64,000 nucleotides of DNA, from assembly GCA_015227615.1 (NCBI GenBank), contig JAALGZ010000058.1:102111-166110 (forward strand). The letters are read 5' to 3'. The position numbers and the translations under genes were made by a program. The notes beneath the pieces were generated by a model. The model ran no database searches and was not told where the DNA came from. It saw only the letters and a program-made list of their open reading frames with translations. Positions 28,601-64,000 of this stretch are shown piece by piece (positions within the stretch are counted from its first letter, which is position 1; each line of letters opens with the position of its first letter). The stretch is from Labyrinthula sp. Ha. Lineage: Eukaryota > Sar > Bigyra > Labyrinthulida > Labyrinthulaceae.

Positions 28601-29769
28601 ATTTCTATCAGAGGCTGGTTAAGAACCCGAACTATTATAACCTTGAAAATTTGACCTCAATCAGGTTGAGTGAATTCTTGTCGGAGTTGGTAGAGAATGA
28701 AAGTAAGAAGCTTTCAACCCTTGAACTGTTGGAGGTTGAAGACGGTGGCGAAGAAGAGATTTTTACTCCGCTGAATTTGGGATATATTTGTTTCCACTAT
28801 GCTTTAAGCAGTCGGACAGCTGATATATTCCATAATTCCATCTCTGCGAAATCGAAGTTGCCCGCCATTCTTGAGGTCTTGTGCTATGCCAAAGAGTTTG
28901 ATTCGCTCCTCGCAAATACTTATGGGCCAAAAGAAAGAGATACCTTGGAAAAGTTTTTACTCGACTCTACTGCTACTGCTTTGAAGATTTCACAAAATTC
29001 GTTTGCTCATGCTGGTGCTGAACTCAAGGTTAATATCTTGCTTCAATCATATCTTTCAAGATCTCCAGTAAATGAGGTGATGTCTCAAGAACAACGCACT
29101 CTAGTCATCGAAGCTCTGCGACTAATATCACCATTGGTTGATATTATTGCTAGTAACCTTCATTTACACCAATGTCTAAATGCCATGGAGCTTTCTCAGA
29201 TGTTTGTGCAGAGAGTTTGGAAGAATGAATCTCTTTTGAAGCAAGTACCATATCTAACAGTTGACTTGATAAAAAAGCTAGAAGAGCACAATGTTAAAAC
29301 CGTCTTTGACTTAATAGACATGGAGGACGATCTGCGACTTAAGCTTTTAAATCTAAATGAAGCGCAGCTTAATATGGTTGCTGAATTTTGCAACTCATAC
29401 CCTGATATCGAAGTTGAGGTATCATATGATAGTGAAGTTAAAGATGGCGAAAAGGTTTACGCAGTGAAGGTTTACCTTGCAAGGGTTATTGATGAAGAGG
29501 ATGAAGATACAATTTCAGAAGTACCACGAGCAGTTTCAGAGTTTTGTCCAATGACTAAACTTGAACAGTATTGGATTATTTTAGCAGATGAAGAGCAAGG
29601 AATTGTTCTTGGAATGAGAAAAGTAAAAGATTTGCTTGTTCATAAAAATGTGGGATTTGAAGTTGAAACTAATGAGATCCCAAAAAGTGGCAAGCTGAAG
29701 GTGTTTGTTGTTTGTGATTCATATCTTGGTGTTGATCAAGAGCACATAATTGAGTTTAACCTGGCGTAA
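22696..29769 (+). CDS. BRR2: spliceosomal RNA helicase Brr2 / SNRNP200 (2 exons)
   Basis: Exon 1 is 22696-22824 (43 codons) and exon 2 is 22882-29769. Together they give 2338 residues, slightly longer than human SNRNP200 (2136). The N-terminus (YDYKSNSNLVL, GPTGEV, GGTRFGDK) matches the conserved Brr2 start, which supports both the ATG and the 57-nt intron. Cassette 1 is complete: motif I APTGAGKT at about 507-514, motif II DEIH at about 625, motif III SAT, and motif VI QMLGRAGRPQFD, followed by a Sec63 module. Cassette 2 is strongly degenerate: motif I GCGRT near 1475, ENLQ near 1605 in place of DExH, LSDA in place of LSTA, and motif VI not recognisable. It is followed by a second Sec63 module to the end. 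Brr2 unwinds U4/U6 during spliceosome activation and works in the U5 snRNP with Prp8. Confidence 0.95.
22825..22881 (+). other. 57-nt intron of Brr2
   Basis: The donor GTACATTA follows AACAAAATG and the acceptor TTGTTCAG precedes GGTGGAACC. Phase 0 removal gives NKM|GGTRFGDK, which fits the conserved Brr2 N-terminus. An inner AG near 22861 would break the frame. Confidence 0.88.
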
Positions 29770-29771
29770 GC

Positions 29772-30869
29772 TTATTTTGTGTTATTCCTAAGGTTCCAGT
29801 TTGAAAACATTAAAGCTGCTTGAATAACCACTCCACATGCTAGCAGAATCTTCAGAAACTTAAGTTCTAAGTTTCTCTCTCCAGCTAGGTTTTCTTTAAG
29901 TCTCTTCCTAATCATGTTTTCATCACCCCCAACCCATAAAGGTAGATCCTGTTTCATTTTCGACAACTTTCCTGCATCTTTAGTAGATATTAGCCATATT
30001 GAACTTTTCTTGTGAACTTCTTCTGATAATTTCTTACCCTGCAGAGATAAATCTATTTCCAAATCAAGTATACTTTTTTCCTCTTTTAAATATAAAAGTG
30101 ATACACCACCTGCGACTTCCCATATAAAAGAAAGAGGTTGAACCTCGTAGAACAAACGCAATCTCTTTGAAGGATAGGAAAACAATCCTGTTCTAGAGTA
30201 TAAATTTCTATGAACATCTGCAACCATACAAGACATCCAACGAACACTTCTACCAGGACGAATAAGAGTGGAGATAAAAGCAGAGGTTATATCATCCCAC
30301 TTGTCACTATTTCCTTCGTTTATGGAGTATATTCTGGTTTTACTTAATTTATTATCTTGTATTCTATGTGCTTTCTCTTTTAACAGGAACTTTTTCTCAA
30401 CGAAGCTGTATTGGTAGTACTTAACTTTCTCAGTGGTTGCAAAACAAAAAACTAAAGGTGCACTATATAGGGCATATCCAGCAGCTACTATATTTCTTCC
30501 TGTTACTTTCTTGGTCTTTGTCAGTTGATAGATTGCGAAGATGGATCCAACAGAAAGAGAAACCGGTAGGTTTTGTGACCCATCTAGAGGATCAAAACTA
30601 ACGAAAATATCTCCTTTTGATTCTTTAAACCAGTGAATATTTTCTTCTTCCTCAGAAGCAAAACCTGACAATATATCCTTGTTTGTAGTTTCGAAGCGTT
30701 TTAGTGCATCACAGAAAACTTTATTAGAAGCAAAATCTAAAAGCGATACATCGTCTCCTGAAAAGTTTGTACTTAAAGAAAATGTCTTCTTCCTTATTGG
30801 AGTATGGGTTGACAACAGTTTGTATACATCAAGTGATATTTGCTTGAAAGTTGTTTCCAAATTCTCCAT
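29772..30869 (-). CDS. fructose-1,6-bisphosphatase-like protein with hydrophobic C-terminus
   Basis: 365 residues from the ATG at 30869; the reading frame is open slightly further upstream but without an ATG. FBPase signatures in order are: ASEEEENI (metal-ligand Glu), FDPLDGSQN at about 91-99 (family FDPLDGSSN), SVGSIFAIY, SINEGN, RWMSCMVADVHR (family RYVGSMVADVHR), and RLRLFYEVQPLSFIWEVAGG (family KLRLLYExxPMAFIxExAGG). The acidic metal ligands are kept, while the sugar-phosphate Lys before LRL is Arg. It would remove the 1-phosphate of fructose 1,6-bisphosphate or a related sugar bisphosphate. Unusually, the chain continues past the normal FBPase end. After a charged linker comes a hydrophobic segment (LKILLACGVVIQAALMF) just before the C-terminus, resembling a tail anchor. 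No chloroplast redox insertion was seen. Convergent with Brr2, 2 bp between stops. Confidence 0.8.
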   Translation of the reverse strand: MENLETTFKQISLDVYKLLSTHTPIRKKTFSLSTNFSGDDVSLLDFASNKVFCDALKRFETTNKDILSGFASEEEENIHWFKESKGDIFVSFDPLDGSQNLPVSLSVGSIFAIYQLTKTKKVTGRNIVAAGYALYSAPLVFCFATTEKVKYYQYSFVEKKFLLKEKAHRIQDNKLSKTRIYSINEGNSDKWDDITSAFISTLIRPGRSVRWMSCMVADVHRNLYSRTGLFSYPSKRLRLFYEVQPLSFIWEVAGGVSLLYLKEEKSILDLEIDLSLQGKKLSEEVHKKSSIWLISTKDAGKLSKMKQDLPLWVGGDENMIRKRLKENLAGERNLELKFLKILLACGVVIQAALMFSNWNLRNNTK

Positions 30870-33800
30870 ATCTTCCAACACCAATTCTACATAGTAATGT
30901 CACACTGTGTTATCAGCAACCAACAACTATACTGTCCATAGATCAGATTCTTACTTGAAACCTTTGGGAATAAATCACTCGGTAGAAACAATCAGAAGCA
31001 CCGTTCTTTCAGATACGAAAGCTGATTATTAGCGGAGAAAGAAAGAAATAATTTAAGGAGAATTACAAATTATGTAGCCTTGTTAGAAAGTAGAAGTTAA
31101 ATTTGTTTTCAAGACGTTTGCAGGAACTCTATTGAGAGCAAGGATGATACTTACGCAACAATGTCCGCGTTAAAGCTTTATGTAGGATCGCTCCATCTAT
31201 TTTATATTAGATATTTTTTATGGTTTCCGTGTTTTACCCGTAGACCAAAATTTGAAAACCAGAAACCGCAACAAATGTATTGCTACAGCTGATAAGGTTT
31301 TCTTAGAACCATAAGAACTATGAAGGGAAATACTTAAAAGATACTTTAAAAGCTAAAAATATTTTTGTCAATATATAGTTTGTAATAATTCTCCATTTTA
31401 ATGGTTTCTCCTGCCTATTTCATCATTTTGCGAAGTAGACATTTCGGGTTGGTGGACATCAGTATATGGCGAATACTTCCCGAATGTTTTTTCGTAGTTA
31501 GAAAACAACCAAATTCCGTCAAAAAAATATTGATTTAGGTTTTTTTAGCTAGAATTCAGTTTAGTTTTTTCTTTTCTTTATTGTATTTACTGAATAATTC
31601 ACCTCTCTCTTCCAGTATTCAATGGGTATGGCACCTTCGGCTACGAGTATTATTACGGTGGACCTGTTTCCTATAATGATTAGGAAATGATTTTATCCCA
31701 CTTGAAATAACCTTTTTAAAATCAAGGTCTCGGCTAGAAGCACAGAGTTTTGGATCATTTTGCATAACGTTTACAGTCTGTTTTAGGGTCGGCTCGACTA
31801 AGAACATGGACAATGAATTATGGAGCTCTACTTCTTTACTGTAAACACAACATGTGATGACCCTATTTGAAGTAGGAAAGTGCCACCATTCATACATTAT
31901 TGTCTAAGAAACTAACTAGAAGTATATTATATATTGATACCACTCATGAAAAATTGATCAACTCTCCAACCATCAATCGGGTGATTCTAATAAAAAGAAT
32001 TCATGAATTGTCTAGTATTGGCCAAATAGTCAGGATGCATCCACACGTTAGATTGTCTTTTCTATAGGAATTAACTCAGAACATTGAAATATATACGTTG
32101 TGTCTTTCTACTTAATGGTGCGTACTCTGGTTCTACGAGTTATACAAAGGGTTAGTTCAGTTCAGTTCCTCATTATGATACTTTTGTAGGGAAAAGTGAA
32201 CAGATATTCTATTTTCACTGACAGATTTTCAATTTAAATACTTATTTTCTGACTTTTATAAGAAAGCTTAGCATAAAATAGAAGAGTCTCAATAGCTGTA
32301 CAAGCAAATTCCCAGTGGTCCTTTCAATTTCTGCTGGATATGCTTTGTACTCTCTTCCTTCCCTATCAAGAGGGAGAAGTTTAGGAAGTAATGAATCTAC
32401 TTTGGGTTTACTACTCTCACACAGCCGCAACAATAAAATTCATGTTTTATTGGCTATTCTTTCCATTTAATGTGGTATCTAATGTGTAGTGGGTTTCTTG
32501 TGTATTAAGCGTTCATAATAATGTAGTTTCTCCCATGATTCAATTGTAGGTAGGTATCAGAATGACCAAAATATTAGCAACATTTGTTTGTTAATTCTTT
32601 TGATTCTGGTGATCAACAAGAGAACTTGGTTTTTCATTTAAATCATCGGTTTCCAAAATTATTCTGGATATCAATTGATAATAAATAAAGTGCCTAGCTA
32701 ACCAAAGGTCATGTGGTTTAGTCTTGAATTAATACTCAATGGTTATTAGTGATCAATCTGAAAAATTCGAAAATATTAATTACTATCGGTAAGAAATGTA
32801 CAACTAAGGAAAACCTTCATGCAATATGAAATAAACAAGTAAAATCATTAATTATATAACACAGTCAGTCTATGAGCAATAAATTTAAGATCACGGCGCT
32901 GAAACTTTAGTTGGTTGATGTTGTTAGTCAAGTGGTACATCAGGGCACATTAAAAAGTGAGAAAAAAATAATTGAATTTGATTTAGTTCCGCAACGCAAA
33001 AGTGTTGTGTTTTTCTTTATAGTTACTTTGTATTAGTTTAACCTATTATACATTTGAATTTTCCCTTGCCATGATATTTCTTCGTCAAACGTAGAATTAT
33101 TTCACAATGTACAGTGTTTTAGCCAAACACTGACTTAACAACAATAGTCCATTAACTTAATGCCCCCCCCATCCCCAGCAATATCTATCTATACACAACC
33201 GTTATAAGTTTCTAGGGCCTGCCAAACATTTTAAAACAATAATTAATATCACTGAAGTTTTGTCTGTTTACTCTAAATAGTATTGTTTGGGTGGAGTTAA
33301 GTCCAACTGTGTCTACATTGTTTGTTGTCTATCACTTTGATATTCCAAAACTTCATGTACCGAGTATTCAAAATAAGTACAGTTAAATAATACTCCAATT
33401 GCTTAATAATATTGAAAGGGACTGGAAGATCCGATCTCGGTTAAAATGAATTTATTATTATTATAAGTTTCTACTCGATTTTCTGTTTGCATAGTTTCTA
33501 GTAAGAGGATGGGTAAGCAACACCAAATACTTTAAAAGTTAATATATATCCAACTATTCATATACGCTTCAATTACAAATTAAACCCTTTCTTTTGGATA
33601 GGCAATATACCATTAAATGGCCAGTTTTCGGATTGTTCCCGTGGAGTGGGATATGCTCATTAGGCGAGATACAATAATTTTAATGCATTCAAGGTCTCAT
33701 AAGATTCATATTTATTGAAATGACATGAATTTCAATATCAAAATAATAGCTTCTTAAGCTCCATGGAAGTGAAATCTGTATTAGAAGTACCTTGCTTAAG

Positions 33801-39190: not shown

Positions 39191-39208
39191 TTAAGACTAA
39201 ACATATTT

Positions 39209-39334
39209 TGTTTCTGTTTCTTATGTTCAAGAATTAAAGTATGCCTGGTATTCAGAGATAACTCCAGAATACCAACGCTAACTAACAATATATATATACG
39301 AAACTAAATACGCAAACTACATATAAATACAACA
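39209..39334 (-). repeat. 3' LTR of copia element 1 (126 bp)
   Basis: In element orientation it starts TGTTGTATTTATATG and ends CAGAAACA. It contains an 8-bp inverted repeat (TGGTATTC at 39246-39253, GAATACCA at 39267-39274) that is preserved in the other LTR. It is very short for an LTR. Confidence 0.85.
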
Positions 39335-39344
39335 CCTTCCCTAG

Positions 39345-40958
39345 TTAGAGGTGGTATACTTTATTATTAAATGTATTTATTTTATTTCTTTGGAGCATTT
39401 TAGTTATTACGTCCACAAGATTTTCTTCAGTCTCAACATAGATTAACTTTGCTTTCATGGCTTCAAGCTCCTGCTTTGCAAATTGAAAAGGGGTATCTAA
39501 ATATCGATTTCTCCCAGTAGCAGTGTCATTCAATATCATCCTCATAGCAGGTTGATTGTCAACATATACAAACGTGTAAAAATCAATATTAAGGCTGCAT
39601 AAAATAATAAAGATTAATTTCAATTCGCGGAGAGCTAAACTAATTCCGTCGTATTCAGCTTCTGTAGAGTTATTCACAACAACAGGTTCGAGTTTAGATA
39701 AAGCATCAATTAAAATTTCGTTGAGAAGAATAATAAATCCATAAACAGAGAGCCTTCTAGGTCCATTTGCAAATGAACTATAGACAAACATACTTAAATC
39801 CTTTTTAAGCTTTGTAGTGTCGTATTTCAAAACCAAATTCTTTGTGTCAAATGAATATCGCAAGGTTCTACGCGCTTCAGATAACATATCAGCGTTTGGA
39901 GCAGACGTATGTCTAGACAATACATGTACAGCGTAAGTCACTTCTGGTCTTCCATGGTGCGTTACATAATTAATAATACCCACAATTTGTTGGTATTGCT
40001 CCTTGTTAAACAATATTTTAGAAGAGTCACTATTGAATTCGTTAGCCAAAGGAGTAGTGAGTTTCTTCTTAGATACTTCAAGTTGATGGCGAGTAAATCC
40101 TTTTGTAATGTGAGGAGCAACTGATAATAAGCAAGACTGTCCAGAAGGAATGAGTTGTAATCCAACGTAGGTATCAGCTACAAGATTGAATTTCAGTTGA
40201 AACTTGCTTTCCATAAACTTTTCAAACATATTTATCATATCTTCCGTTCCGGGGTATAGTAAATCATCAACATAGATTAGTACTATTATCTTCATCCTTT
40301 CCTCATTGATAAAAAGACATCGTTCATTCATTAACGGCTTCATTTTAAGCTGCTCCAGTGCAGTAGTTAATGTTCTATGCCAAACCTTTGGCGCTTGCCT
40401 TAGACCATAAATGCTTGTCGCCGTCTTCCATACTAACGTGCTGTTTTGCCTTGGTGGATGACCTTTTGGAAGTTCAAGGTAGATAGCTTCGTCGAGATGA
40501 CCGTAAATAAAAGCTGCAGCTATGTCCAGTTGTCTCATCCACATATTGATGCTTATAGTAATTGTAATAAATATTCGTATTGTTTGAATAGGAGCGACGG
40601 GTGCGTAGAAGCGGATATCCGTAGAAGAATAGTTGCTTCGTTGTGTTGTATCGTTCGCACAAATGCGGGTTTTGGCGATCCAATCACCTTACATATTTGT
40701 CGTGCATTTAAGCACTTCAGGCAATGGGATTATTTCAATATTTGTAGGAGGTCTTAGTACGATATCAAAAGATCCGATTCTTTCGATACTATCGATCTCT
40801 TTTTGATAGGCATCATAACATAATTTAGCATCAGATCTTGATTTGATACTATGATAACTTCTTGGTGGAATTGTGGAATCGGTTATAGTAGAATTTGCTT
40901 CTAAATTCAGAACTCGTTGCTTCCTTTTTCGCTTCTCATGAATAATATTATTAGGCAT
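39345..40958 (-). pseudogene. copia element 1 reverse transcriptase-RNase H, partly open
   Basis: The long frame 40544-39345 contains RT blocks LDIAAAFIYGHLDEAIYLE, GLRQAPKVWH and IYVDDLLYPG (catalytic YVDD intact), then copia RNase H with STEAEYDGISLALRELKLI and TKMLQRNK near the end. The RT N-terminus lies in two other frames (40958-40689 and 40683-40474), so at least two frame changes separate it from integrase and from the RT core. The final codon is next to the purine tract before the 3' LTR. Confidence 0.8.
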
Positions 40959-44007: not shown

Positions 44008-44133
44008 GTAACTATCCTTTTAACTTTGAATTTATGTTTAATAAAGATATATATATCAAAAGTTTTCGAGGCTGTAGGTAAATGAAGACAAAGGAGAATA
44101 GAATCAGCAGGGAGACTTAGGCTCTTAACCTTT

Positions 44134-44259
44134 TATTTCTGTTTGTTATATTCAAGAATTAAAGAATGTTTGGTATTCAGAGGTCACTCTAGAATACCAA
44201 CACTAACTAACAATATATATATACGAAACTAAATGCGCAAACTACATATGAATACAACA
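44134..44259 (-). repeat. 5' LTR of copia element 1 (126 bp)
   Basis: Same length as the 3' copy and roughly 90 percent identical, with the same inverted repeat at 44171-44178 and 44192-44199. The sequence just inside (AACAGAAATAAAAGG in element orientation) does not begin with the TGG expected for a standard tRNA-3'-end primer site. Confidence 0.85.
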
Positions 44260-44729
44260 CATATATATTTGAACAGATACTTTTTTGTACTTTGTTCGGT
44301 ACGTATAGTTATTAACGAACTAGATGCAGCTATTTCCAATTATACTTTCATCGATATAATCTTCATAAAATTTAACTAACATCCACAGAAAATTTTTATC
44401 TTGGAATATAAAGACTGCAACTATAGGTACTGTACTTATTGAGTAGTATGGTATCTGTAATATAATAGGACAATGTCGTAACTTGATTGTTAAAAATATA
44501 AAAATAAGAAAACTCAATTCAACAGGTTAAGAACCTGAGTACATCCTTTGAACAAGAACAAAGGTAAGTTACTAAGAAGCAGCTTTCGTTGTCGAATATT
44601 TTAGCAGACATAAAAAAGGAAAGAGTAGCTCTTGGGTAAGATAAAGAAGTATTATAGCAAGAAAAGACGATAAGGTTGTTTAGGCGGTTCTTTTTCAAGT
44701 GGACAGCCCTAGAGGGACTCACTGGGCTT

Positions 44730-48590: not shown

Positions 48591-50710
48591 TTAGAATACT
48601 TTCAGCTTCTTTTCTTTAACCAAATCCTTCAAGAAATGAATCTGAACACTTAAATGTTTTTGCTTTGCGGTGACTGGTTTTTCTAATGTGTTAACGCATG
48701 TTTCGGAATCAGTGAGGATTACAGGTGAAGAATCAAGTTCACAATGTAGATCCTTGCAAAGTCCTGCAATTCCTTGTAATTGCTTAGCTGTTGAATGAAT
48801 CTCCATCAACTCGGCACTTGCAGCTGAGGTTGCTACAACACTTTGTGCTTTGCTTTTTCCACTGACTAGAGATTGACCTAAGTAAATTAAGTTTCCGCTA
48901 ACCGATTTTTGATTTAATTTGTTAGCAGCCCATTCTGCGTCACAGAATGCGATTAGTTTAGTTTGAACATTTCCAGTTCCTTTGAAGAATCTTCTCTTTA
49001 GATTTTTTGTCTGTTGTAAGTAACCTAGGGTGTTCTTAATTGCTTTGATTGCCTCTTCAGTTACATTTTGGGTGAACCTGCTAAGAGCGTGTAATGCAAA
49101 AAGTAAATCTAACCTTGTTAGTCTAAGGTAGATGGGAGATCCTAAGATTTGTCTGTAAGGAAGTTTGGTGTTTGATTTGTGTTCAGGATCGACTAGTGGC
49201 TTGAATGTATCTGGAAGGGGTGTGTCTTTAGGTGTTGCAACTAAGTGTTTGAACTTCTTCAGTAATCCGTTGATGTACTTAGCTTGATCAATTTCAAAAT
49301 CTCCTTTGCTGTTTTCGGAAATGTTAACTCCTAAGAAATCCACTGATTCACTAAGATTTCCAACTGTGCATGGGTAAAAGTTATGAAATGATTTAATGAA
49401 TTTTGAAATTTCGTTTTTGTTTCCTAACATCAGAACATCACCCACGTCCAAGAGTAAAATTAGGTTTTGCTTGTAGTAAACACATTCATCAAATTTTGCT
49501 TGAAGGACACGCAAGCTGCGTAAGTTTGCTGTTACATTGTCATGGTACAGTTTATGATTTTCTATTAGTCCGTATAGCACTTTGCAGATTTTCATCACCA
49601 TTTTCTTGTTTTCATGCTGTAGCGGATGACCATCAGGAATTTCGTAAAAGAGTTCCGTGCTTGGTGGAATATCTGTGTAAAGAAAAGCTCTGCTGACGTC
49701 TAATAAGTTAAAGTCAAAATCTCTGCTTGCAGCAATTGCGAGAGCCACTTTTAACCACGTATGGATTCTTGTTATGAATGACTTATGCTTATTTTAACTT
49801 CTTGACTGCTTGGTAACTTAACTGAAGTTCTGACCAATATATTTCTTATCTTTTTACTTCTTTGAATTGCTTCAATTAAATCTGCTTATATATATATCAA
49901 AATACAATCTCCGCTCATTTATATTCCACTGACCACCCTTCAACCTTCTTCCTGACTTGACCATAACTCTAACCATTTATTCATATCCTTTCTGTGGTTG
50001 TTAGACTATCTTATTTTCCCAAGGCACTTATTTTTTCTCTCTTGTTCATCCAAGCCGCGTCGTGTTCTGGTACTCTTCTATTTTTCTCGTTTTTCGTATT
50101 CTCTGTATTTTGACGAGTGATCATATCCCTAAAATACAGCGAGTTTTCAGCATAAGGGTCGAAGGACGGCTGTATCTTTTTCCAAAAACTTTCCTGCCTA
50201 CAAAACTGGAACTCTTTCACTTTAATCGACCCAGGGTCAAAACCACACTTAGACTTTCTGCTTTGAGTATTGGCGAGCATCGATGTGTAGTGATTTTGTA
50301 GCGTTGATTTCGACCATTGTAAACGCAACGTGCCTTGTGCTTTCCATTACGCTTCTTCTTTACCAACATGGCACACTTTCCAGTGAACACATCTTGTGGA
50401 AGAGTTAACCTTGGGACTCGTTTCATAACACTTCTAGTTTCAAGAGCATTTATTTCTTTTCACACTGCTAAGTAAAGTCTTTCGTAAGGATGATTTTTAA
50501 CGTCTTTTTGAACGTTCGGAAGGTTTTTCAACTTTGCTTAAATGATTTTCTGTTGTAACCTTTTCGTTTCTCCAAGTGTTTTTGGTTTAAATTTGTAGGT
50601 TCCATCCCCTGTTTCCACAGTAAAAGCAGCTGCTTTTCTCAGATCCAACATTGTGGCCATTCTTCCAGATCTAGTGGAATCTGGTTTTGGAAGGTCACTT
50701 CCACTAAGGG
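48591..50710 (-). pseudogene. copia element 3 reverse transcriptase-RNase H, inactive
   Basis: RT begins near 50700. The PYERLYLAVCKEINALE block and KARCVYNGRNQRYK (family KARLVAxGxxQ) come first. Frame changes follow, and then the long frame 49748-48591 with LDVSRAFLYTDI and IYLRLTRLDLLFALHALSRF. At the catalytic site LLLDVGDVLMLG stands where LLLYVDDxLxxG is expected, so one active-site Asp is lost. RNase H (IAFCDAEWA, SAASAELMEIHSTAKQL) follows. The main frame is open for 385 codons despite the altered active site. Confidence 0.75.
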
Positions 50711-54644: not shown

Positions 54645-56448
54645 CCTAAATATGAACGGTAGTTTTCAAGTATTTGTGTTTTTCTTGCAGCTTTGGTTTG
54701 GATTGTTTTTGCCCGTAATAAGAATTCGAAAATTAGTAGCATCTTGCCTTCTACAAAACAGTTACTTCATGGAATACTTTCTACCGTATAATGTACTTTG
54801 TACTGTAATACCATATCACAATTAATACATGGAAGTAAGTACAAGGTAGAAGTAATACACAACTTGCAATAGGGTAAGGTCGCAAAGTCCAGTTAAATCC
54901 TCAGCAATAAAACATGATAATCGCTTGACTTGGTACGATTATTTCATCCCTTTACCTTATTTAGCTAACGGGAGACCATGTACCTACTACACAATAGTTA
55001 ACCAAAATATATAGAATAAACTGTAACTTTGTTTTGTTCAGTGCTTTGTATCGTATAATCATGCTGCCGGGATCTATTTGGATTGAGTAATTTCTCGAAC
55101 AAATTTAAGCTTCGTTTAGTCTGCAATATAAAGGCTTTCTCGTTTCACTTTCTTAGCCTGCACACTCATGCACAGAACTACCATGTTTTTTGTCACTTGA
55201 ACGGTTGTCTCAAGTTAATGGTTTAACTTGCACCACCTGGTGACAAAATTTTTGATTTGAACCTATTTAAATGTAGTTGGTTCATTGCATCAACTTCAAC
55301 GTGTTGAATACTAGATAATTTAATGAAAAAAAAGTCTTTTTGCGGCTAAGGTGTTGCTGATGCACTTAGTGAAGCTGTGGTCTTAGCTTTCGTGTTGACT
55401 TTAAATTTTCCTACCGCTTCATTTCTTCGGATAATTATTAAGACAAAGTTGGAAATTGAACCAATGTGATTTTTGAGTAGATGGCGCCAGAGTCTATTAA
55501 CTGCAACAGGGAACCTCTAAGCTCATGAGCATGCTACGCTTAATCAACGCACAAATTAAAATACCAGAAAGAAAACATTAAACAACAATCAGAACGTGAC
55601 CAAACAATAAATATTCATGTTTCAAAAATTCGGAAGTACTGATTCGATCAATAGTGAAAAGTTGATCTTTACGTTAATTGAATGGTTGTAGAGTGCGCTG
55701 AGTGAAATAGTTTAATGTAGCTGTTGCCGAGTTTTCTAAGTGTAGTTATAAAACCTTTTAGTTATTTTCCGCTTTCATTCTTTATATCATTTCATATATT
55801 CTTAAAACAACTCCCTCAAAGAAAATTAATCGGTAAATTTCTGAAATAATCGATGAAATGTGACACATTGTATTCTGGTGAGCAGATTGCAAAAACATTT
55901 AAAAATTCTCCTTTAGAAAAAGCTAAAGGAGGGAGAAGATTTTTTCATGAGTTTGGGTACGAAATATGCTCTCCTTCTTAACGTCGTATATATAATCCCA
56001 CGTGCTTCCGTCCTCTCTGAGATATTAATCTCTTCTCTAATTAACTGATGTTCCGTTTTGTATCATCACTTTTGCATTGTAATGAGTTAAAACTTTGTTA
56101 ATTGTATTTTTATTTTGGGTAGTATGAAAATATCTGATGAAAATGGAGGGCTGTTTTATGTCAGAGTCAAAGGGCATTCGTCACATCCAGCTATGAGTAA
56201 ATTTCGTCGAAGTATGGAAAATTATTCAGTACCGCGATACGGAATTACTCTGTTCAATGAACCTAAGAATTCTTCAAAGTTCATACGAAGGGTAGGGAAT
56301 TGAAGAAAAAAAGTGACAGGTTATTACTATTTTGTCAAGTTTGTTAATTCATAGTTATCCCTCTGTCGCGATAATAAGTTCATACTACAACCTCTATTAT
56401 TGGTTTAAGATATGAAGTATAGAGAAGCTCTACCACTCTTCCATATAT
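54645..56448. other. gene-free spacer with one small open frame
   Basis: 1.8 kb between copia element 3 and the gypsy element. A 59-codon frame from an ATG at 56124 to 56303 (plus) contains GGLFYVRVKGHSSHPAMSKF but no recognised family, and may be chance. Otherwise AT-rich DNA. Confidence 0.4.
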
Positions 56449-57209
56449 TGCGTTTATCGTCTTCCTGTAAATTACTCTTAAGACGTCCGCGGAAGAAAAA
56501 ACCAATCACAAACACAACTTGGACCTTGTAAAAGACCTCAGATCCAATAAAATAGGGTTTCGCGTTAGATATAAACTCAATAAACTTCCTTTTATAATTC
56601 ACTAAAAAACTCTTTTTCTCTTTTTTTTATATCGCTTAACAGTTAGTAAAAAACGGAAAATATATGTCAAATACTACTTTCAACTTTCCTGAATATTGTA
56701 TATTTCAACTCAGTTCCAACACCGTATTATGCAGAATACCTATACCAAAATTCCCAAATGACCATGTCACCCCTCAATCGTAACTAACGATATCTCGTTT
56801 TTAATTTATATCAACAAATGTCACCAAATGTAAATTCATAGGAGAAAAACGTCAATGAACAAACCACCCTTTCATCTCATCACGGGCGAATTTTATCACA
56901 TAATACGAAAGAGAAAAGACTGTAAATTAGGTTCTCGATTTGACCAAATCAACTGTAACTCTTCGAAAACACTTCAGAATAAACCAAAAACTTCACAATA
57001 TCTTCGTATCATCTCATAAATTCATATTATACCAAAATTTCACTTGTATATCAACATTAACCAAAGTTTCTTTCACATCTTTATTTCTTAGTAACATCAA
57101 GAACATCAAAGACAAGCATTTTTGGAATCAACCACCTGAGACACAGCTGAAACAAAACATATATCGCAACTACATTAAACCATAAGATATTTCACATAAA
57201 ACCACAACA
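56449..57209 (-). repeat. 3' LTR of the gypsy element (~760 bp)
   Basis: The left boundary was set by alignment with the 5' LTR at TGCGTTTATCG, with up to three or four more bases (TAT) also shared. The right boundary is at ACAACA next to the purine tract. In element orientation it starts TGTTGTGG and ends CGATAAACGCA, so it has TG...CA ends. Confidence 0.85.
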
Positions 57210-57220
57210 CTGCCCCTTTC
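57210..57220 (-). other. polypurine tract of the gypsy element
   Basis: The minus strand reads GAAAGGGGCAG directly before the TGTTGTGG start of the 3' LTR. This is the usual primer for plus-strand DNA synthesis in LTR retrotransposons. Confidence 0.75.
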
Positions 57221-57232
57221 AGCATCAGGTGA

Positions 57233-60200
57233 CTATAACTCATTTCCAACAGTGAACCAATTCTTCCTCAAATTATTTTTCCGTCCAAATAGTTCCAAAA
57301 AACGAGTTTCCTTCTGACAACTGTTCTCTAACAACTCATATAATTCCACTGGTTTTTGAGCGTTACCAGTTCTTTTACCGTATAATATTTCTTTGCCCAA
57401 TGATCTTGTAACTAAAATCTTCGGTAGCTCACCTTTGACCCCTAAAATGCACTCCTCCGTGCAACGCATTGTAAGGTTACCAAGTGTGGATAATATTTTA
57501 TTGTGTCCATTTGTTTTTATCCAAATAAAACGTCCCATCATGCGAATTCCGTTTCGATGAAATAATTCTTGAACAATATTTTCCTTTCCTTTAATAACCC
57601 AAACGCAACAGAGGGTGTTATGCATCACTGCTTTCAAATTCAACTTCAAGATCTCATCATCAGATAAAGTAGAGTAAGACACAGCTGGTCCTCTAACAGG
57701 ATCCCCGGAGAACACTCTCCATGGTGGATCTACAATCAAAACATCAAACTTCTTCTGCGTTTCAGTTAAAAAACATCTAACATCACCTTTGTAAAACCTC
57801 CCAACACCTTCTGTGTTCCAAATATAGGCCACACAGTTCAATTCCTTAAAATCCGCTTTAACTAAGTTTGGTGTATCGCACTTTCTTACTTCATATTCTG
57901 CATTTCTCATTGGAAAAATATAATTCTCACACAAACTTTCTTTTACTTCTTCTAACTTTCCTTCAATATCTTTTTCTCTCCTTCTTAGATCACTCCAAAG
58001 TTGTTTCAGAAATAATAGAAAACTCTCTTTTCCTCCTACAAACTTCGGAAAACAATCATCCAAACTACTATCTTCTTGTTTAACATATTCTAACATCATC
58101 TTAACTCCCTCCGTATTTGTTAAATTAAACACTTTCAATTCCTTTTCCTTAGCTTTCTTGAAGTTTTTAATATGTTGAGCTGCATATTTCCATTTAATCA
58201 AAACCTCAAACATCCTAACTTGCTTTGAATCTCTAGGTATTCTTCTTACACAATATTCTTCTCCTGTCATCCGCAAGTTATCAACTCGTAAAACATCAAC
58301 ATCTAAATAAAGCCCATGGTAAACTTTCAGGTTTTGCCTTCCAACAAGTTTCTGTAACTTCGTGTAAACTTGTTGCTTATTCTTTCCAGGTACATATTTT
58401 TTCAGAGCAATAAAATCTCCAAAACCATGATTCAAAACACCAAATCTCAACGCTTCAACTTCATAGGTGGACCAGTTAAGATAGTTCCACTGCCCCAACT
58501 CATTTATAACAACCTTCCCATAAATCAATTTCTTAACATAAGACGATTCCTCTTTCTCACTCATAGCATAGAGAGAGTTCAAACTACCACTTACTTCTTC
58601 TTCGAAAGCATCTGGATACATTACTTTCAAATATTGATACAACTCTTTCGATAACACACCTGGATTGTCACGAATAAACTGGTTAACAAGTGAAGGAAGA
58701 TCCTCGAACATAATGGTCACTGGTTCAAACGTGTTGTCACTTGTAGGAAATCCACGCCACTTGACCTCAAAACTTAGGTTTCCTTCAACATCCTTGATTA
58801 ATCTTACAAACTTCTCAACCTCTAAATCACCACGGTTCATTCGGTAAACTAACTTAGTTGCCGGGTTAGGTAAAAACCCAACTGGCGCAAACGGTATTAA
58901 CAAAGTGGAATGTCTAACCTTGACATTACCATTTAAATCTTCCAACTTGTAAAGGTGCTCGCTAATCATCTCTCTAATCTGGTAGGGACCACACCATCTT
59001 GGCTTCACTTTGTCTTTATTTCCAGAATTTACTTCCTTCTCCGACATCCAAACAAACTCACCAGGCCGAAAGAATATGGGTGTCAACTTAGCATTTCTTC
59101 TGAGGTTAGCTTTCATGCGATATTCTAAACCACAACTACTAGCCTTTCCCTGAAGTTTATGAAGATCTTCTCTCAACTTAATAGCTGCTTCCTTTAATCT
59201 CTGAAAATCCTTCTTCTCCATGTTTTTGTAAACGCTACCTAACTTATTATTCTTTCCTTCTACTCCAATCATTAACTCCAATGGAGACATTCGTAAACCT
59301 CTACAAGTAAGCGGAGTTTGGTTAATGAAGGCCTGGACCATTGGAAGTACATCCGGCCATCCATTATTGCCTAAACCAAACTCGCTTACTATGCTTCTCA
59401 AATGTCTTAAAATTTGCCGATTTTGAACTTCTACAGCTCCAGCAGTATATGAAACGTATGTAGCAGTAAACCTGTGGCTACATCCACTTTCTCTCAAAAA
59501 CTTCTCCACAACGTTGGAGGTAAAATGTGATCCTTTATCGGTCACTAAAATAAAATCATCTCTTAGTTGAAAATGACTATTCCAATCCCAAAGGATGGAG
59601 ACCAAGTTATCGGCTGTAGCTTTTTTACAGTACCTCAATATCGTTGTCCTAGTCAAACTATCGACCAGTGTTAAGATCCAACCAGTTGAGTTGATGTATA
59701 AAAAGTCCGCTAATAAAACCTCACCAGAACGGCTGCCCCATTCGGTGATATTAAATGTTCGGCGAACAACTAAACTAGGCTTCTGACAATGCATGCATTG
59801 TCGTCTGAAGACCTTATGAGCTTCAACAACTAGAGCCCATATTTCTGCTTCAAAATAATAACTATCCTTCAGCAGTTTAACTTCGTTTGCTTTCGATCCA
59901 TGGTTAAACCACATATGTGCATGTAAAATAAGCACAGGGATCATAGACTTTGTGACAAATATTTTTTCCTTTTCTTTCTTCAATTCTTCAAGGCTTTCTC
60001 CTAAATCCCTTTTCTGTAAGTTAAATAATAAAACTTCGTCAATCACCTCCCAGCCGACATCCGCTAGGTTCAAACGTGCTGGATGTCTAGGTGAGACATG
60101 AAGCATATCAACCGCTCTCCAAAAATCTAACTCTGTATCGCGACTGTTAGCTCTAGAAATAGCTTTACAAATAACTTCTAAATCAGCTTCAGTTTTATGG

Positions 60201-61057
60201 TATTTAGGGTTCAACCACCTCGATAAACAATCAGCTGGAATATTCTGGTAGCCGTCTAAATGACAAGCTACCAGGTTTAATTCCATAAACTCCATTGCCC
60301 AACGATTTAATCTAGAAGTATGGGACTTTAACTTCGCTTCTCTTGGATTTAATATCTGAACCAAATTCTTATGGTCAGTAAATAACACTTTCTCTTTAGC
60401 ATTGTACTTTAAATAGTACGGAAACTTCTTGACTGCCATTAAAACAGGAAATAATTCTTTGCACGAAATGTGCCAATTCAATGCTGATCCTACAAAACTT
60501 CCAGAGCTCATAGCAATTACTCTGAAATTGCTTAGGAATGGATTCAATCTATCAACCTTCTCAGAAGTTTGCGAAATATATAAACTGTAAAATCTTTCAC
60601 TTGCATCTGTGAATAAATACACGTCTTCTTTTGGATCATAAAAACCAAGCGAATAACTCATCGAGTCTTTCAATGCTTGCATCATTTCTTCGTAAGTCCT
60701 CTCCATTTCTTCAGTCCATTCAATGGGTACTCTTCTTCTCTCCAAATTCTTCATTTTACCTGTAATTTTGTGACTCCCAAGTAACAGTTTTCTTATTTTT
60801 GAGAACCCCGGAATAGTCGCTGAAATGAAGTTCGCGGTATAAATAAGTTGAGCAAGTTCGTGTAAATAAGTAGGTTTTACTCTCTCCAACAACCCTTTAG
60901 CATAACTGTTGTCAAAGCTCCAACCATCCTTATTCACTTCACGACCGCAAAACGTCAACTTATCTGCTACCAACTCACATTTCTCCACATTTAAACGCAA
61001 TTCCTTCTTCTGAATTTGTGTTAAAAACCTAGACGTATTATCATAGAGTTCTTCCAT
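57233..61057 (-). CDS. gypsy RT end-RNase H-integrase-chromodomain-SANT-MT-A70
   Basis: 1274 codons. RT thumb (LNVEKCELVADKLTFCG, 23-39). RNase H: FTDAS 149-153, TDHKNL 227-232, and HLDGYQNIPADCLSR 266-280. Integrase: H379/H381...C421xxC424 zinc module and D451, D507, E543 (a DD35E spacing), then the GPY motif at 690-692. Chromodomain about 745-795 with the FEVKWRGF and NTFEP core. SANT/Myb-like about 860-908 (NWSTYEVEALRFGV, HGFGDF, KNKQQVYTKLQKL). The MT-A70 domain, about 1055-1274, has FDVLIVDPPWR (DPPW 1110-1113), YSTLSDDEILKLN, IWIKTN and CILGVKG. It ends with LFGRKNN and NWFTVGN, where R1259 and N1262 match the SAM-binding R and N of METTL3. That is the METTL3/IME4 branch rather than a bacterial N6A enzyme. 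The CCCH fingers of host METTL3 are absent. The start at 61057 is nominal: translation probably comes from the upstream frame. Confidence 0.92.
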   Translation of the reverse strand: MEELYDNTSRFLTQIQKKELRLNVEKCELVADKLTFCGREVNKDGWSFDNSYAKGLLERVKPTYLHELAQLIYTANFISATIPGFSKIRKLLLGSHKITGKMKNLERRRVPIEWTEEMERTYEEMMQALKDSMSYSLGFYDPKEDVYLFTDASERFYSLYISQTSEKVDRLNPFLSNFRVIAMSSGSFVGSALNWHISCKELFPVLMAVKKFPYYLKYNAKEKVLFTDHKNLVQILNPREAKLKSHTSRLNRWAMEFMELNLVACHLDGYQNIPADCLSRWLNPKYHKTEADLEVICKAISRANSRDTELDFWRAVDMLHVSPRHPARLNLADVGWEVIDEVLLFNLQKRDLGESLEELKKEKEKIFVTKSMIPVLILHAHMWFNHGSKANEVKLLKDSYYFEAEIWALVVEAHKVFRRQCMHCQKPSLVVRRTFNITEWGSRSGEVLLADFLYINSTGWILTLVDSLTRTTILRYCKKATADNLVSILWDWNSHFQLRDDFILVTDKGSHFTSNVVEKFLRESGCSHRFTATYVSYTAGAVEVQNRQILRHLRSIVSEFGLGNNGWPDVLPMVQAFINQTPLTCRGLRMSPLELMIGVEGKNNKLGSVYKNMEKKDFQRLKEAAIKLREDLHKLQGKASSCGLEYRMKANLRRNAKLTPIFFRPGEFVWMSEKEVNSGNKDKVKPRWCGPYQIREMISEHLYKLEDLNGNVKVRHSTLLIPFAPVGFLPNPATKLVYRMNRGDLEVEKFVRLIKDVEGNLSFEVKWRGFPTSDNTFEPVTIMFEDLPSLVNQFIRDNPGVLSKELYQYLKVMYPDAFEEEVSGSLNSLYAMSEKEESSYVKKLIYGKVVINELGQWNYLNWSTYEVEALRFGVLNHGFGDFIALKKYVPGKNKQQVYTKLQKLVGRQNLKVYHGLYLDVDVLRVDNLRMTGEEYCVRRIPRDSKQVRMFEVLIKWKYAAQHIKNFKKAKEKELKVFNLTNTEGVKMMLEYVKQEDSSLDDCFPKFVGGKESFLLFLKQLWSDLRRREKDIEGKLEEVKESLCENYIFPMRNAEYEVRKCDTPNLVKADFKELNCVAYIWNTEGVGRFYKGDVRCFLTETQKKFDVLIVDPPWRVFSGDPVRGPAVSYSTLSDDEILKLNLKAVMHNTLCCVWVIKGKENIVQELFHRNGIRMMGRFIWIKTNGHNKILSTLGNLTMRCTEECILGVKGELPKILVTRSLGKEILYGKRTGNAQKPVELYELLENSCQKETRFLELFGRKNNLRKNWFTVGNEL

Positions 61058-63506
61058 CGTACCCCCCCATGATAATACTGTCGTCGATCCATTGCATGGC
61101 CTTCCTAGGCCAGAGGCCTGAAGGCATTAAAACTTCCTCAATTTGGCGCATAGAAAATAAACTAGGGGTATTGCACCACCCCTGTGGTGCCCCTAGGAAA
61201 GAATATGATACCCCCCATGGGGTTGTAAACGTGAAAAACTCACCAGCTTGCTCTTTACAAGCTAAATAATCAAAGCCAGAAAGTAAGTCAAATCCACAAA
61301 AATGCGCATTTCCTTTCACGCGATCCAATTGCAGCTCAATTTTTGGTAGTGTATTTGAAACTTTCTTCGTAACTCTGTTTAAAGGTCGAAAATCGACCAC
61401 CAACCTAAAACGTTTAGGTCCCTTCTTGGGCACAACCAGCACACTCATTGCTGTTGTGGGATTTTTATTCACTTGAATAATACCAGCTTTAACCATATGA
61501 TTGATCCGAGCGTGTAAGAAATCCTCTTGCTCTTGGCCTAGGGGTAGTTGTTTCTGAACGCCAACTTGAGCCCCTTCAATTATATCACATCTTATCGGGG
61601 TAATCTTCGACAGCTTCGTATAACTATTTGAATCCCCAAAGGTCTGAGCATGTTGCAAAAATAACCCTGTGAACTTCCGTTTCCACGCTAAAGAATCATC
61701 AAAGTTGACCACTGGTATATTCTCCAACTTCTCTCGAATAATATTCCTCATTCTTTCATTGTCTTTTTTAATATCAGTGACCTCTGCACCTGCTCCTAAA
61801 TCAATGTTTTCAATATCTAAAAACTCCTCCTCGTTGGGCCAATCCCAACCAAAAACTTGAGGAGGAATGTTTTTCTCGTTGCTCGGATATATTTCTTTTA
61901 TCTCAATATCCCTCGCAGCTTCATCTTCCACACCAACGTTGCTAACAAACCATTTAGCAAAACTAGTTTTTGCCTTCCCCTTAACCTTCATCTTACTTTC
62001 CATGGCGCTAAGGGGGTCCAACCCGTAACGACACAGCACGTCGTTACCTATTATCAGGTCATCCCATTCCGGCACTTCCAGGATTAGGACTTCAACCTCT
62101 TCAAAAACAAGTGGTTCCAACTCGGGTTTATCACTTTCCACCCACATTTTTCCAATAAATCCCACTTCATGTACGGGGTATATAACACCCCCCGCGGCCT
62201 GTACCCTCACCGGCCTTTTCAACTGCTTAATACCATCACATAGCTTCTTATGTTTGCTGTTAAGTGCACTTCTAAATGCTCCTGAGTCCAACAAACATTT
62301 AAGTTTCTTTCCAGATAAATATGAATCAACAAAAGCGTTATCCTTCACCGCTTTTATTTTATAAAAACCATCGTCGTGGAGAACTTTAGATGAATTTATA
62401 ACACTCTTCACCTCATTAAGTTTCACACTTCCTATTTCAGTATCCTTCTTTCCACCAAAAAACTTATTTGGACATCCACCAACAGCTCTAAACATCTTAC
62501 TTCCAAAATACTCCTTAGCCATATCTTCCACTTTATCCTCTTCTTTCTTTATCGACGCAGACTTGGTCATCTCATACAACTTCTCCTTCTTCCTTTCTTT
62601 ATATCTTGTTAACCTTCTCTGCATTTCATCTAAACCAGGATAAGGTAGTGCAGGCTTTCCTGCCTTCTTTTCATAACAGAATCTCTGCGTGTGCCCGTAA
62701 ATCCAGTCGTGTTCACACAGCAGCTCGTTTCCTTTAGGCAACTGACCCTGATCTTTCGGCATCTGCGCAGACTTTATCTCATACTTCTGCTTCCGCGATG
62801 CAACCGGGTGTTGCTTTGTGGATTTAATCTTATCCGCACAAAAAACTTTAAACTCCTTCCTCACATGTCTTGGAGGTATGCACGATAAAATATATTTCTT
62901 TAACTCTTGGCGATCAGCTTCCTCTAGTTCTGGTTTCAAATTTAAATCATCATAGCGTACCCAGATGTGTTTGGGTAACAAATCAAATATAGCCTTAGCG
63001 ATCTTCCTTGGCTTCCGTCTTGATTCAGGAGGTAGTAAAGAGAGAACTTCTTCTACTTCTTGGAAAAGAACTTCGACTGCCTCTTCCTCGTCCATCTCCT
63101 TCTTAAAAACGACCTGTTTCCTAATAAGGCCTTCAGCGCTTCCGGCATCTTCGACCTTCACTCTTACTATCTTCTTCTTGATTGCATTAATTATTTCATC
63201 ATTAGAACCCAAACAACCTAAACATTCCATTTGCTTGTAAACTAGCTTCCCTAATTTCTGCCTCAGCATAACATACTTTCGCTGATCTTCGTTAATTCTT
63301 TCATATTGGTAAATAAACTTCTCCATGCTACGGAGTGTAAAATTTTCCAAGATAGATATCTCTGCTTGCATTCCTGCAAAGTTATTTAGCATCGCTTCCA
63401 TTCTCCTCTGCGATTCTTCTTGTTGCTTCAATAAAATCTCCTCAAACATTTTCATGACCTGGGCCATGTTAGGAGCTCTTTCACTCATATCTACTTCCCA
63501 CTCCAA
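61041..63506 (-). CDS. gypsy gag-protease-RT (first part)
   Basis: 821 codons. Residues 1 to about 260 are a gag-like helical region (start MEWEVDMSERAPNM; a second ATG is at M7). A possible degenerate zinc-binding motif (CEHDWIYGHTQRFC, about 266-279) follows, then a Lys/Glu-rich linker. The retropepsin motif LLDSGA is at about 404-409, with IIGNDVL later, as in Ty3 proteases. RT begins near 640 and shows FRLVVDFRPLNRV (about 698-710), FDLLSGFDYLACKE, TPWGVSYSFLGAPQGWCNTPS and the catalytic MQWIDDSI block, where WIDD takes the place of YxDD. The frame stops 12 codons later at TGA, while the rest of RT continues in the -1 frame of the next entry. The overlap is 17 nt and contains a G7 run. 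Confidence 0.88.
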   Translation of the reverse strand: MEWEVDMSERAPNMAQVMKMFEEILLKQQEESQRRMEAMLNNFAGMQAEISILENFTLRSMEKFIYQYERINEDQRKYVMLRQKLGKLVYKQMECLGCLGSNDEIINAIKKKIVRVKVEDAGSAEGLIRKQVVFKKEMDEEEAVEVLFQEVEEVLSLLPPESRRKPRKIAKAIFDLLPKHIWVRYDDLNLKPELEEADRQELKKYILSCIPPRHVRKEFKVFCADKIKSTKQHPVASRKQKYEIKSAQMPKDQGQLPKGNELLCEHDWIYGHTQRFCYEKKAGKPALPYPGLDEMQRRLTRYKERKKEKLYEMTKSASIKKEEDKVEDMAKEYFGSKMFRAVGGCPNKFFGGKKDTEIGSVKLNEVKSVINSSKVLHDDGFYKIKAVKDNAFVDSYLSGKKLKCLLDSGAFRSALNSKHKKLCDGIKQLKRPVRVQAAGGVIYPVHEVGFIGKMWVESDKPELEPLVFEEVEVLILEVPEWDDLIIGNDVLCRYGLDPLSAMESKMKVKGKAKTSFAKWFVSNVGVEDEAARDIEIKEIYPSNEKNIPPQVFGWDWPNEEEFLDIENIDLGAGAEVTDIKKDNERMRNIIREKLENIPVVNFDDSLAWKRKFTGLFLQHAQTFGDSNSYTKLSKITPIRCDIIEGAQVGVQKQLPLGQEQEDFLHARINHMVKAGIIQVNKNPTTAMSVLVVPKKGPKRFRLVVDFRPLNRVTKKVSNTLPKIELQLDRVKGNAHFCGFDLLSGFDYLACKEQAGEFFTFTTPWGVSYSFLGAPQGWCNTPSLFSMRQIEEVLMPSGLWPRKAMQWIDDSIIMGGYDGRTL
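61062..61068 (-). other. G7 run at the RT frame break
   Basis: Seven consecutive G on the minus strand, just after the catalytic WIDD codons of RT. The upstream frame reads through it and ends at 61041; the downstream frame is -1 relative to it. It can be a slippery G-GGG-GGG site, a one-base indel in this copy, or a base-calling error. Confidence 0.7.
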
Positions 63507-63633
63507 AGTAGCTTCTCTTAAAAATAAATTGCCGTAAATCTTGAATAGCAGGTAAGCTTATTAATAAAACCTTCTTTAAAACCCAATAAAAAATATATGA
63601 TGGTTCTTCCCTAAGTATACAATATTGCAATAT

Positions 63634-64000
63634 TGCGTTTATCGTCTTCCTGTAAATTACTCTTAAGACGTCCGCGGAAGAAAAAACCAATCACAAACAC
63701 AACTTGGACCTTGTAAAGACCTCAGATCCAATAAAATAGGGTTTCGCGTTAGATATAAACTCAATAAACTTCCTTTTATAATTCACTAAAAAACTCTTTT
63801 TCTCTTCTTTTATATCACTTAACAGTTAGTAAAAAACGGAAAATATATGTCAAATACTACTTTCAACTTTCCTGAATATTGTATATTTCAACTCAGTTCC
63901 AACACCGTATTATGCAGAATACCTATACCAAAATTCCCAAATGACCATGTCACCCCTCAATCGTAACTAACGATATCTCGTTTTTAATTTATATCAACAA
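63634..64000 (-). repeat. 5' LTR of the gypsy element (partial, off window)
   Basis: The first 367 bp as read on the plus strand match 56449 onward with one A-run indel, a T-run difference and one G/A change. The remainder of about 390 bp lies outside the window. The palindrome GCAATATTGC (63627-63636) straddles its inner boundary. The adjacent internal sequence does not begin with TGG in element orientation. Confidence 0.9.

Follow-up and report, generated by a model that had tools for sequence, protein, structure and literature searches.

Layout of the element and its domains

The window analyzed here, a 64,000-nucleotide stretch of contig JAALGZ010000058.1 from Labyrinthula sp. Ha, carries a long terminal repeat (LTR) retrotransposon whose polyprotein ends in a Myb-like domain followed by an MT-A70 methyltransferase domain. 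The two domains resemble p1 and AMT1 (MTA1), subunits of the Tetrahymena AMT1/MTA1 complex. By domain order, its chromodomain and GPY module, its LTRs and the target-site duplications of related copies, the element is a Ty3/Gypsy chromodomain LTR retrotransposon of the chromovirus type. Sequence comparison makes it very probable that a Gypsy chromodomain lineage took up a p1-type Myb domain and an AMT1-type MT-A70 domain, placed after the chromodomain and ahead of the 3′ LTR.

The element occupies the last 7.5 kb of the window on the minus strand, and the contig ends where the window does. Two overlapping open frames, both on the minus strand, lie between the LTRs. The 5′ LTR (63631-64000) is incomplete at the contig end and forms a direct repeat with the 3′ LTR (56446-57209, minus strand), whose length of 764 bp is inferred from the 764-bp LTRs of three other copies (L015, L017 and L020). 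A putative polypurine tract, GAAAGGGGCAG on the element's strand, sits just inside the 3′ LTR (57210-57224) and recurs at the same place in other copies. The first open frame (61041-63557) contains a gag-like region, named by position only and with no Pfam gag match, an aspartic protease with a DSGA motif near 62288 and Pfam matches below the cut-off, and the N-terminal half of the reverse transcriptase (RT).

The second open frame (57233-61126) spans 1297 residues from stop to stop. It begins with the C-terminal part of RT (60737-61126), recognized by matches across copies, and continues through RNase H (60281-60718, Pfam 3e-15), the integrase catalytic core (rve; 59456-59731, Pfam 6.5e-9), an SH3-like C-terminal integrase module with GPY at residue 713 (58919-59056, Pfam SH3_Tf2-1 below the cut-off) and a chromodomain (58673-58822, Pfam Chromo 4e-7). 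The predicted DNA-binding Myb-like domain follows at about 58277-58501, as placed by Pfam and profile comparison, and is joined by a linker conserved among related families (57749-58276, family comparison) to the MT-A70 domain (57239-57748). The latter is AMT1-like by Pfam, profile scores and loop length, and its Pfam match is full-length (4e-28, profile positions 1-172 of 172), covering residues 1127-1296 of 1297.

The original prediction, made from the sequence alone, had described an MT-A70 domain in the same frame as RT/RNase H and integrase with no stop between them. This is borne out in the window copy, and the catalytic DPPW motif lies exactly at 57719-57730 as predicted. The frame was said to start with RT/RNase H and integrase; both are present, but it opens inside RT, whose first half belongs to 61041-63557, and the polyprotein frame of the window copy is broken within RT. 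The further statement that nothing separates MT-A70 from integrase overlooked the p1-type Myb domain.

A fixed component across the genome

Searches of the 50.8-Mb genome (153 contigs) with the MT-A70 domain and its relatives identified 296 distinct MT-A70 places, one of which is the host AMT1 gene, leaving about 295 others. The figure of 296 is a lower bound based on the best-scoring candidates, most of which were not fetched, and broken copies may count twice in it. Linkage to the element is nearly complete: 130 of 137 integrases related to that of the window have an MT-A70 domain 1.1-1.7 kb downstream on the same strand, which supports the expectation that other copies would share the domain. 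Only seven lack it, two of them at contig ends (C96; C33, starting at base 306) and the other five counted from match positions. A second, distant integrase query, which retrieves an overlapping set, has MT-A70 downstream in 139 of 150 cases.

Chance neighborhood of integrase and MT-A70 is ruled out by controls. On the opposite strand, MT-A70 matches accompany 0 of the 137 integrases when compared with 212 places, and 0 of the 150 in the second set when compared with 296 places. Same-strand upstream matches were found for 5 of 137. Copia RT matches have MT-A70 downstream on the same strand in 0 of 150 cases, and on any side or strand in 7 of 150. An assembly join between integrase and MT-A70, raised in the original prediction as a way the fusion could be spurious, or a lone odd copy, is likewise ruled out, as the same junction occurs in copies on other contigs.

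The 20 best-match loci share one order of gag, protease, RT, RNase H, integrase, chromodomain, Myb and MT-A70 wherever these parts are covered. The Myb domain is present in 19 of these fetched loci, and the remaining locus is without the part from integrase to Myb. In five loci, a single open frame covers everything matched from gag through MT-A70, and a sixth is interrupted only by a stop inside the gag match. Five more distant loci retain RNase H, integrase and MT-A70 in order and all contain the Myb segment, although the chromodomain is weak in one of them (L037, Chromo E 0.085). MT-A70 is thus a fixed component of a retrotransposon lineage and is present across deeply diverged families.

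Several further features of the family were noted. Several copies lie at the ends of contigs C108, C111, C119 and C96, as is usual for recent repeats, which tend to interrupt assemblies. In loci L034, L035, L036 and L037 (contigs C2, C122, C145 and C140), an aspartic protease motif (DSGA) with weak Pfam matches lies between Myb and MT-A70, near the C-terminus. L036, with L049 upstream of it, is the sole such lineage whose 5′ part was read; there, a zinc-knuckle gag runs into RT with no DSGA at the usual place, and the protease seems from the sequence to have been relocated toward the C-terminus. Scans that need exact short patterns returned no relatives among IMG/VR viral contigs (two MT-A70 queries and one integrase query) or GTDB genome contigs (one MT-A70 query).

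Mobility, co-inheritance and selection

An LTR pair is present in 17 of the 20 loci, two of them partial at contig ends. Pair identity is 98-100% in 15 of the 17; the remaining pairs stand at 94.1% and 92.4%. Target-site duplications flank 13 of the 17 when the ends are allowed to shift by up to 6 bases, and seven stand exactly at the aligned LTR ends; they are 4 bp long, two being printed as 6-bp matches that include the 4 bp. Two of the four loci without a duplication are cut by contig ends. The LTR termini of several families read TG...TA rather than TG...CA. Several families (e.g., L015, L022, L026 and L029) also share TTGCAATATTG immediately internal to the 5′ LTR, at the position normally taken by a tRNA primer site (TGG...); unusual priming or self-priming of reverse transcription is possible in these families.

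Integrase and MT-A70 distances are strongly correlated across 16 families (Mantel r 0.954, with 0 of 10000 permutations as high), indicating that the two domains diverged together. The ratio of nonsynonymous to synonymous substitution rates (dN/dS) is 0.08 for MT-A70 in the best measurable pair, L016-L021 (about 85% identical in MT-A70), compared with 0.05 for Myb, 0.04 for integrase and 0.02 for RT, in keeping with the proposed purifying selection on the domain. The L016-L023 pair, measured for MT-A70 only, gives 0.15. Synonymous divergence is saturated in nearly all pairs, so that ratios come only from these two, with gag and chromodomain near saturation in L016-L021. Across ten lineages, with identity down to 24%, the D-P, R-G, W-x-K, K-P and E-x-F-x-R-x-x-N-x-R-x-x-W positions are nearly invariant. 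The element is mobile, and its MT-A70 and Myb domains are selectively maintained.

The MT-A70 domain resembles AMT1

Among solved structures, the window domain scores highest against Tetrahymena MTA1 (AMT1) at 126 bits, followed by METTL3 (79), METTL14 (58) and METTL4 (24). A ten-lineage profile scores AMT1 at 214 bits, METTL3 at 146, METTL14 at 85, METTL4 at 65 and MTA9 at 45, and AMT1 is the best match of each of three diverged lineages (the window copy and two far ones). The AMT1 chains are labeled 'MT-a70 family protein' in the Protein Data Bank (PDB), and their name is taken here from the companion chains (MTA9, AMT7 and p1) and the structure papers; the PDB entry 'Methyltransferase-like protein 2' is presumed to be METTL4. 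No entry among the structures matched is labeled AMT2/5. A single-sequence structure prediction of the window MT-A70 was uninformative (predicted local distance difference test score, pLDDT, 30).

A loop between a conserved tryptophan and a conserved glutamate points the same way. Its length is 22 residues in every one of 40 aligned rows (38 from elements, at 34 places, plus host and Tetrahymena AMT1); human METTL3 has 24 residues there and human METTL14 has 25. A METTL3-type identity within the RNA N6-methyladenosine (m6A) writer branch, as originally proposed, is set aside on the profile scores (146 bits against 214 for AMT1), the loop length (24 against 22) and the p1-type Myb domain, though the trees leave room for it.

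Trees place the retrotransposon domains with eukaryotic MT-A70s, apart from five prokaryotic or phage sequences (99/98; 98/96 in a second tree built without three rows and METTL14). A prokaryotic, phage or plasmid donor is ruled out by this separate branch and by low scores, the best 8 of 82 phage records and best 8 of 17 plasmid records reaching 56-72 bits by tblastn, compared with 125 bits for AMT1 by phmmer, a different program.

The Myb domain resembles p1

Pfam Myb scores above its cut-off in L037 (26.9 bits) and below it in L031 (20.6) and the window copy (17.1), and is not listed in the other five frames scanned. Profile comparison is more informative. For an eleven-lineage Myb profile, the best match among solved structures is p1 of the Tetrahymena MTA1 complex (72 residues, E 5e-20), followed by SNAPC4 (2e-14) and c-Myb (7.5e-9). 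The p1 match extends past the Myb fold and includes the stretch after the third helix. The window's own Myb sequence also finds p1 at 5e-5; its sole other match up to E 1 is TRF2, at E 1. Structure prediction of this segment gives three helices at low confidence (pLDDT 42), and a fold search with the model places SANT/Myb entries on top, none of them significant. A six-family profile of the linker matched neither p1, AMT1 nor any other solved structure significantly; the AMT1-binding C-terminal helix-turn-helix of p1 is short.

In the Tetrahymena complex, MTA1 and MTA9 are described as having no nucleic-acid-binding domain of their own, while p1 and p2 bind DNA and are required for complex activity (excerpts of PMC9852454). 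A survey reports, in the part consulted, that p1 and p2 co-occur exclusively with AMT1 (PMC12695648), and an account of fungal P1 presents it as a Myb-like protein enriched at chromatin rich in N6-methyladenine (6mA) (PMC13297926, in part). By sequence likeness, the element brings together relatives of two components of the same pathway and is a p1-AMT1-type fusion on one chain.

Conservation of the catalytic site

Catalytic and S-adenosylmethionine (SAM)-pocket residues D209, K280, R357 and N360 (MTA1 numbering) are kept in 14 of 14 listed lineages, drawn from 38 rows. Outside these lineages, L044 has asparagine at the D209 place and the motif NPPW. The window copy retains D209, R357, N360, N370 and E371, with S332 replaced by alanine. 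The motif survey covers 34 of the approximately 295 places, with rows for places fetched twice merged, and [DN]PP[WY] is kept in 28 of the 34 distinct places. Loss of catalytic residues in most copies, named at the outset as a finding that would undercut the proposal, is thus not seen, six of the 34 departing from the motif.

Host background

The host has a separate AMT1 gene (contig C91, locus L039) with 58% identity to Tetrahymena MTA1; none of the other places scored exceeds 41%. Searching the genome with human METTL3 and METTL14 fragments returned nothing better than this host gene (44% and 33%), element copies ranking just below it. The host therefore probably lacks the RNA m6A pair METTL3/METTL14, although intron-split genes could escape the search. 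Several host genes neighboring the element in the window lie in single frames. By Pfam, host genes with a single long frame encode a PLAA/Ufd3-like protein (1346-3559), IFT57 (14488-15675), a Brr2-like helicase (22852-29766) and fructose-bisphosphatase (29775-30899); the presence of IFT57 indicates that the organism probably belongs to a flagellate lineage. The window also contains Copia-type RVT_2 frames (open reading frames 39348-40688 and 48594-49793) and two 130-bp direct repeats (91%) at 39206-39335 and 44131-44260 that may be LTR pieces.

Proposed function of the fused module

The fused module suggests that the element marks DNA chemically to its own advantage. The reading that is probably correct, at modest confidence, is that the element methylates adenine in its own new DNA or in the insertion site. 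As part of Gag-Pol, the module would be packaged together with RT and integrase, and its natural substrate would therefore be new double-stranded complementary DNA (cDNA), the insertion site, or both. MT-A70 would methylate adenine there, probably at ApT as AMT1 does. AMT1 does not bind DNA by itself and relies on p1 for this; in the element, the fused Myb domain would fill that role. The element would probably gain in that each new copy arrives with the mark of transcriptionally permissive chromatin and escapes silencing. We infer every step beyond the module being fused and kept. Self-methylation of a new copy has also been proposed for retrotransposon DNA methyltransferases (DNMTs) (de Mendoza et al. 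2018, passages of PMC5890265).

Several observations weigh against this reading or the kinship on which it builds. The retrotransposon MT-A70s do not form one branch in the best trees, although a single clade is not rejected by the approximately unbiased test (p-AU 0.163 and 0.12); a single capture of the module is likely even though the tree does not show it. A grouping of the retrotransposon domains with AMT1 is not rejected (p-AU 0.131 and 0.159), and AMT1 with METTL3 to the exclusion of the retrotransposon domains reaches p-AU 0.338. The phylogeny suggested in the original prediction thus places the domains with eukaryotic MT-A70s and is compatible with more than one deep order among AMT1, METTL3 and the retrotransposon domains. 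The apparent kinship with AMT1 is supported by sequence similarity, by the length of the loop and by the p1-type Myb domain on the same chain, not by the trees. The element also has no recognized MTA9/AMT7 or p2 partner, though AMT1 acts with these. Antibody maps in Phytophthora, as summarized in portions of PMC6211444, locate 6mA chiefly in repeats, LTR elements among them, and associate it with low expression, which does not fit a permissive mark; such antibody maps are doubted for Trichomonas in the relevant part of PMC12695648.

The catalytic site supplies two more points of this kind. DPAW replaces the usual motif in 4 of 34 distinct places (loci L010-L013, L034, L035 and L043) and DLPF in 2 of 34 (L032 and L033), within lineages that keep open frames, and the SAM-pocket residues at 370-371 vary among lineages. 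Comparison of two DPAW families gives proportions of nonsynonymous and synonymous differences (pN and pS) of 0.16 and 0.93, respectively. By analogy, the DPAW and DLPF lineages are possible non-catalytic partners like MTA9 or METTL14. Chromodomains of such elements are known to steer integration, and the Myb-MT-A70 module could do the same by binding AMT1-type sites, or could aid assembly, with methyl transfer secondary or lost. Open but motif-altered domains under such constraint, and a variable pocket, are what this alternative would predict; it is nevertheless unlikely given that [DN]PP[WY] persists in 28 of 34 places and that D209, R357 and N360 are invariant in all 14 listed lineages.

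An alternative substrate is the element's genomic RNA, where m6A could govern how that RNA is packaged, how stable it is or how it is sensed. RNA and single-stranded DNA are both possible substrates of MT-A70 enzymes, and METTL3 is the second-best solved relative of the domain. Score and loop length are nonetheless nearest the DNA writer AMT1, the domain is fused to a p1-type DNA-binding domain, and the host has no evident RNA m6A pathway, METTL3 and METTL14 queries matching nothing above AMT1. A grouping of the retrotransposon domains with METTL3 without AMT1 has a p-AU of 0.041 (one of four tests, uncorrected). RNA marking is accordingly quite unlikely, and among the marking proposals of the original prediction, the likeness to AMT1 and p1 makes marking of DNA the more likely and marking of RNA the less likely. 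Action in trans, in which many copies raise or dilute genome-wide 6mA or compete for partners of the host AMT1 complex, could draw on the roughly 295 places against one recognized host AMT1 gene and on the proposal that retrotransposon DNMTs alter the dinoflagellate epigenome (PMC5890265, in part), but is very improbable for a module whose polyprotein location favors action in cis.

A more far-reaching version of the self-marking reading would have the p1-type fusion replace the multi-subunit AMT1 complex as a self-sufficient single-chain 6mA writer. The decayed-motif lineages (DPAW and DLPF) would then serve as MTA9-like partners, and the hundreds of copies would amount to a parasite-owned parallel 6mA system that shapes host adenine methylation. 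This scenario is doubtful.

What 6mA does in eukaryotes is a matter of dispute. A transposon that has kept relatives of the catalyst and of a DNA-binding subunit of the AMT1 pathway under selection across deep divergence bears on it and provides natural evidence that 6mA, or AMT1-type engagement of DNA, has value for a genomic parasite. The small fused protein also offers a test system for 6mA writing without a four-subunit complex.

Relation to known systems

An MT-A70 domain is not known as a standard chromovirus component, in line with the original prediction. No LTR retrotransposon with MT-A70 was found described in the open-access literature of PubMed Central, at the level of titles, abstract openings, and the passages of papers naming both terms and of a fungal review at those words. 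According to a 2025 survey, MT-A70 families are relatively static and endogenous genes are what the 6mA-AMT1 pathway acts on (PMC12695648, in part).

With the Tetrahymena AMT1/MTA1 complex (MTA1-MTA9-p1-p2), the element shares MT-A70, the Myb/homeobox-like domain of p1, the loop length, and the catalytic and most SAM-pocket residues. The Tetrahymena proteins are separate host-encoded subunits of a heterotetramer, whereas the element carries relatives of two of them on one polyprotein, with no recognized MTA9 or p2. Sola1 DNA transposons of Ectocarpus likewise combine a DNA-binding domain (ParB) with an N4-methylcytosine (N4mC)/N6mA methyltransferase gene on a transposon, but differ in being DNA transposons with a separate gene and prokaryotic-type domains (sections of PMC12477816). 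Adenine methyltransferases are also encoded by some DIRS retrotransposons, in the form of Dam-like N6-adenine methylases (cited in PMC5890265); those enzymes are of the bacterial type, whereas a eukaryotic-type MT-A70 is found here in an LTR element with an integrase.

KnitGypsy-Dnmt3 of Klebsormidium nitens, SymbioLINE-Dnmt and SymbioDIRS-Dnmt3 similarly carry a host-derived DNA methyltransferase in a coding frame, in many copies and under purifying selection, and KnitGypsy is, as here, a Gypsy element with the methyltransferase in Pol (the pertinent portions of PMC5890265). The enzymes of these three elements are cytosine-5 DNMTs of an unrelated family, whereas the Labyrinthula element pairs an N6-adenine, AMT1-type MT-A70 with a p1-type domain, and would represent an adenine counterpart to the cytosine methyltransferases already known in retrotransposons.

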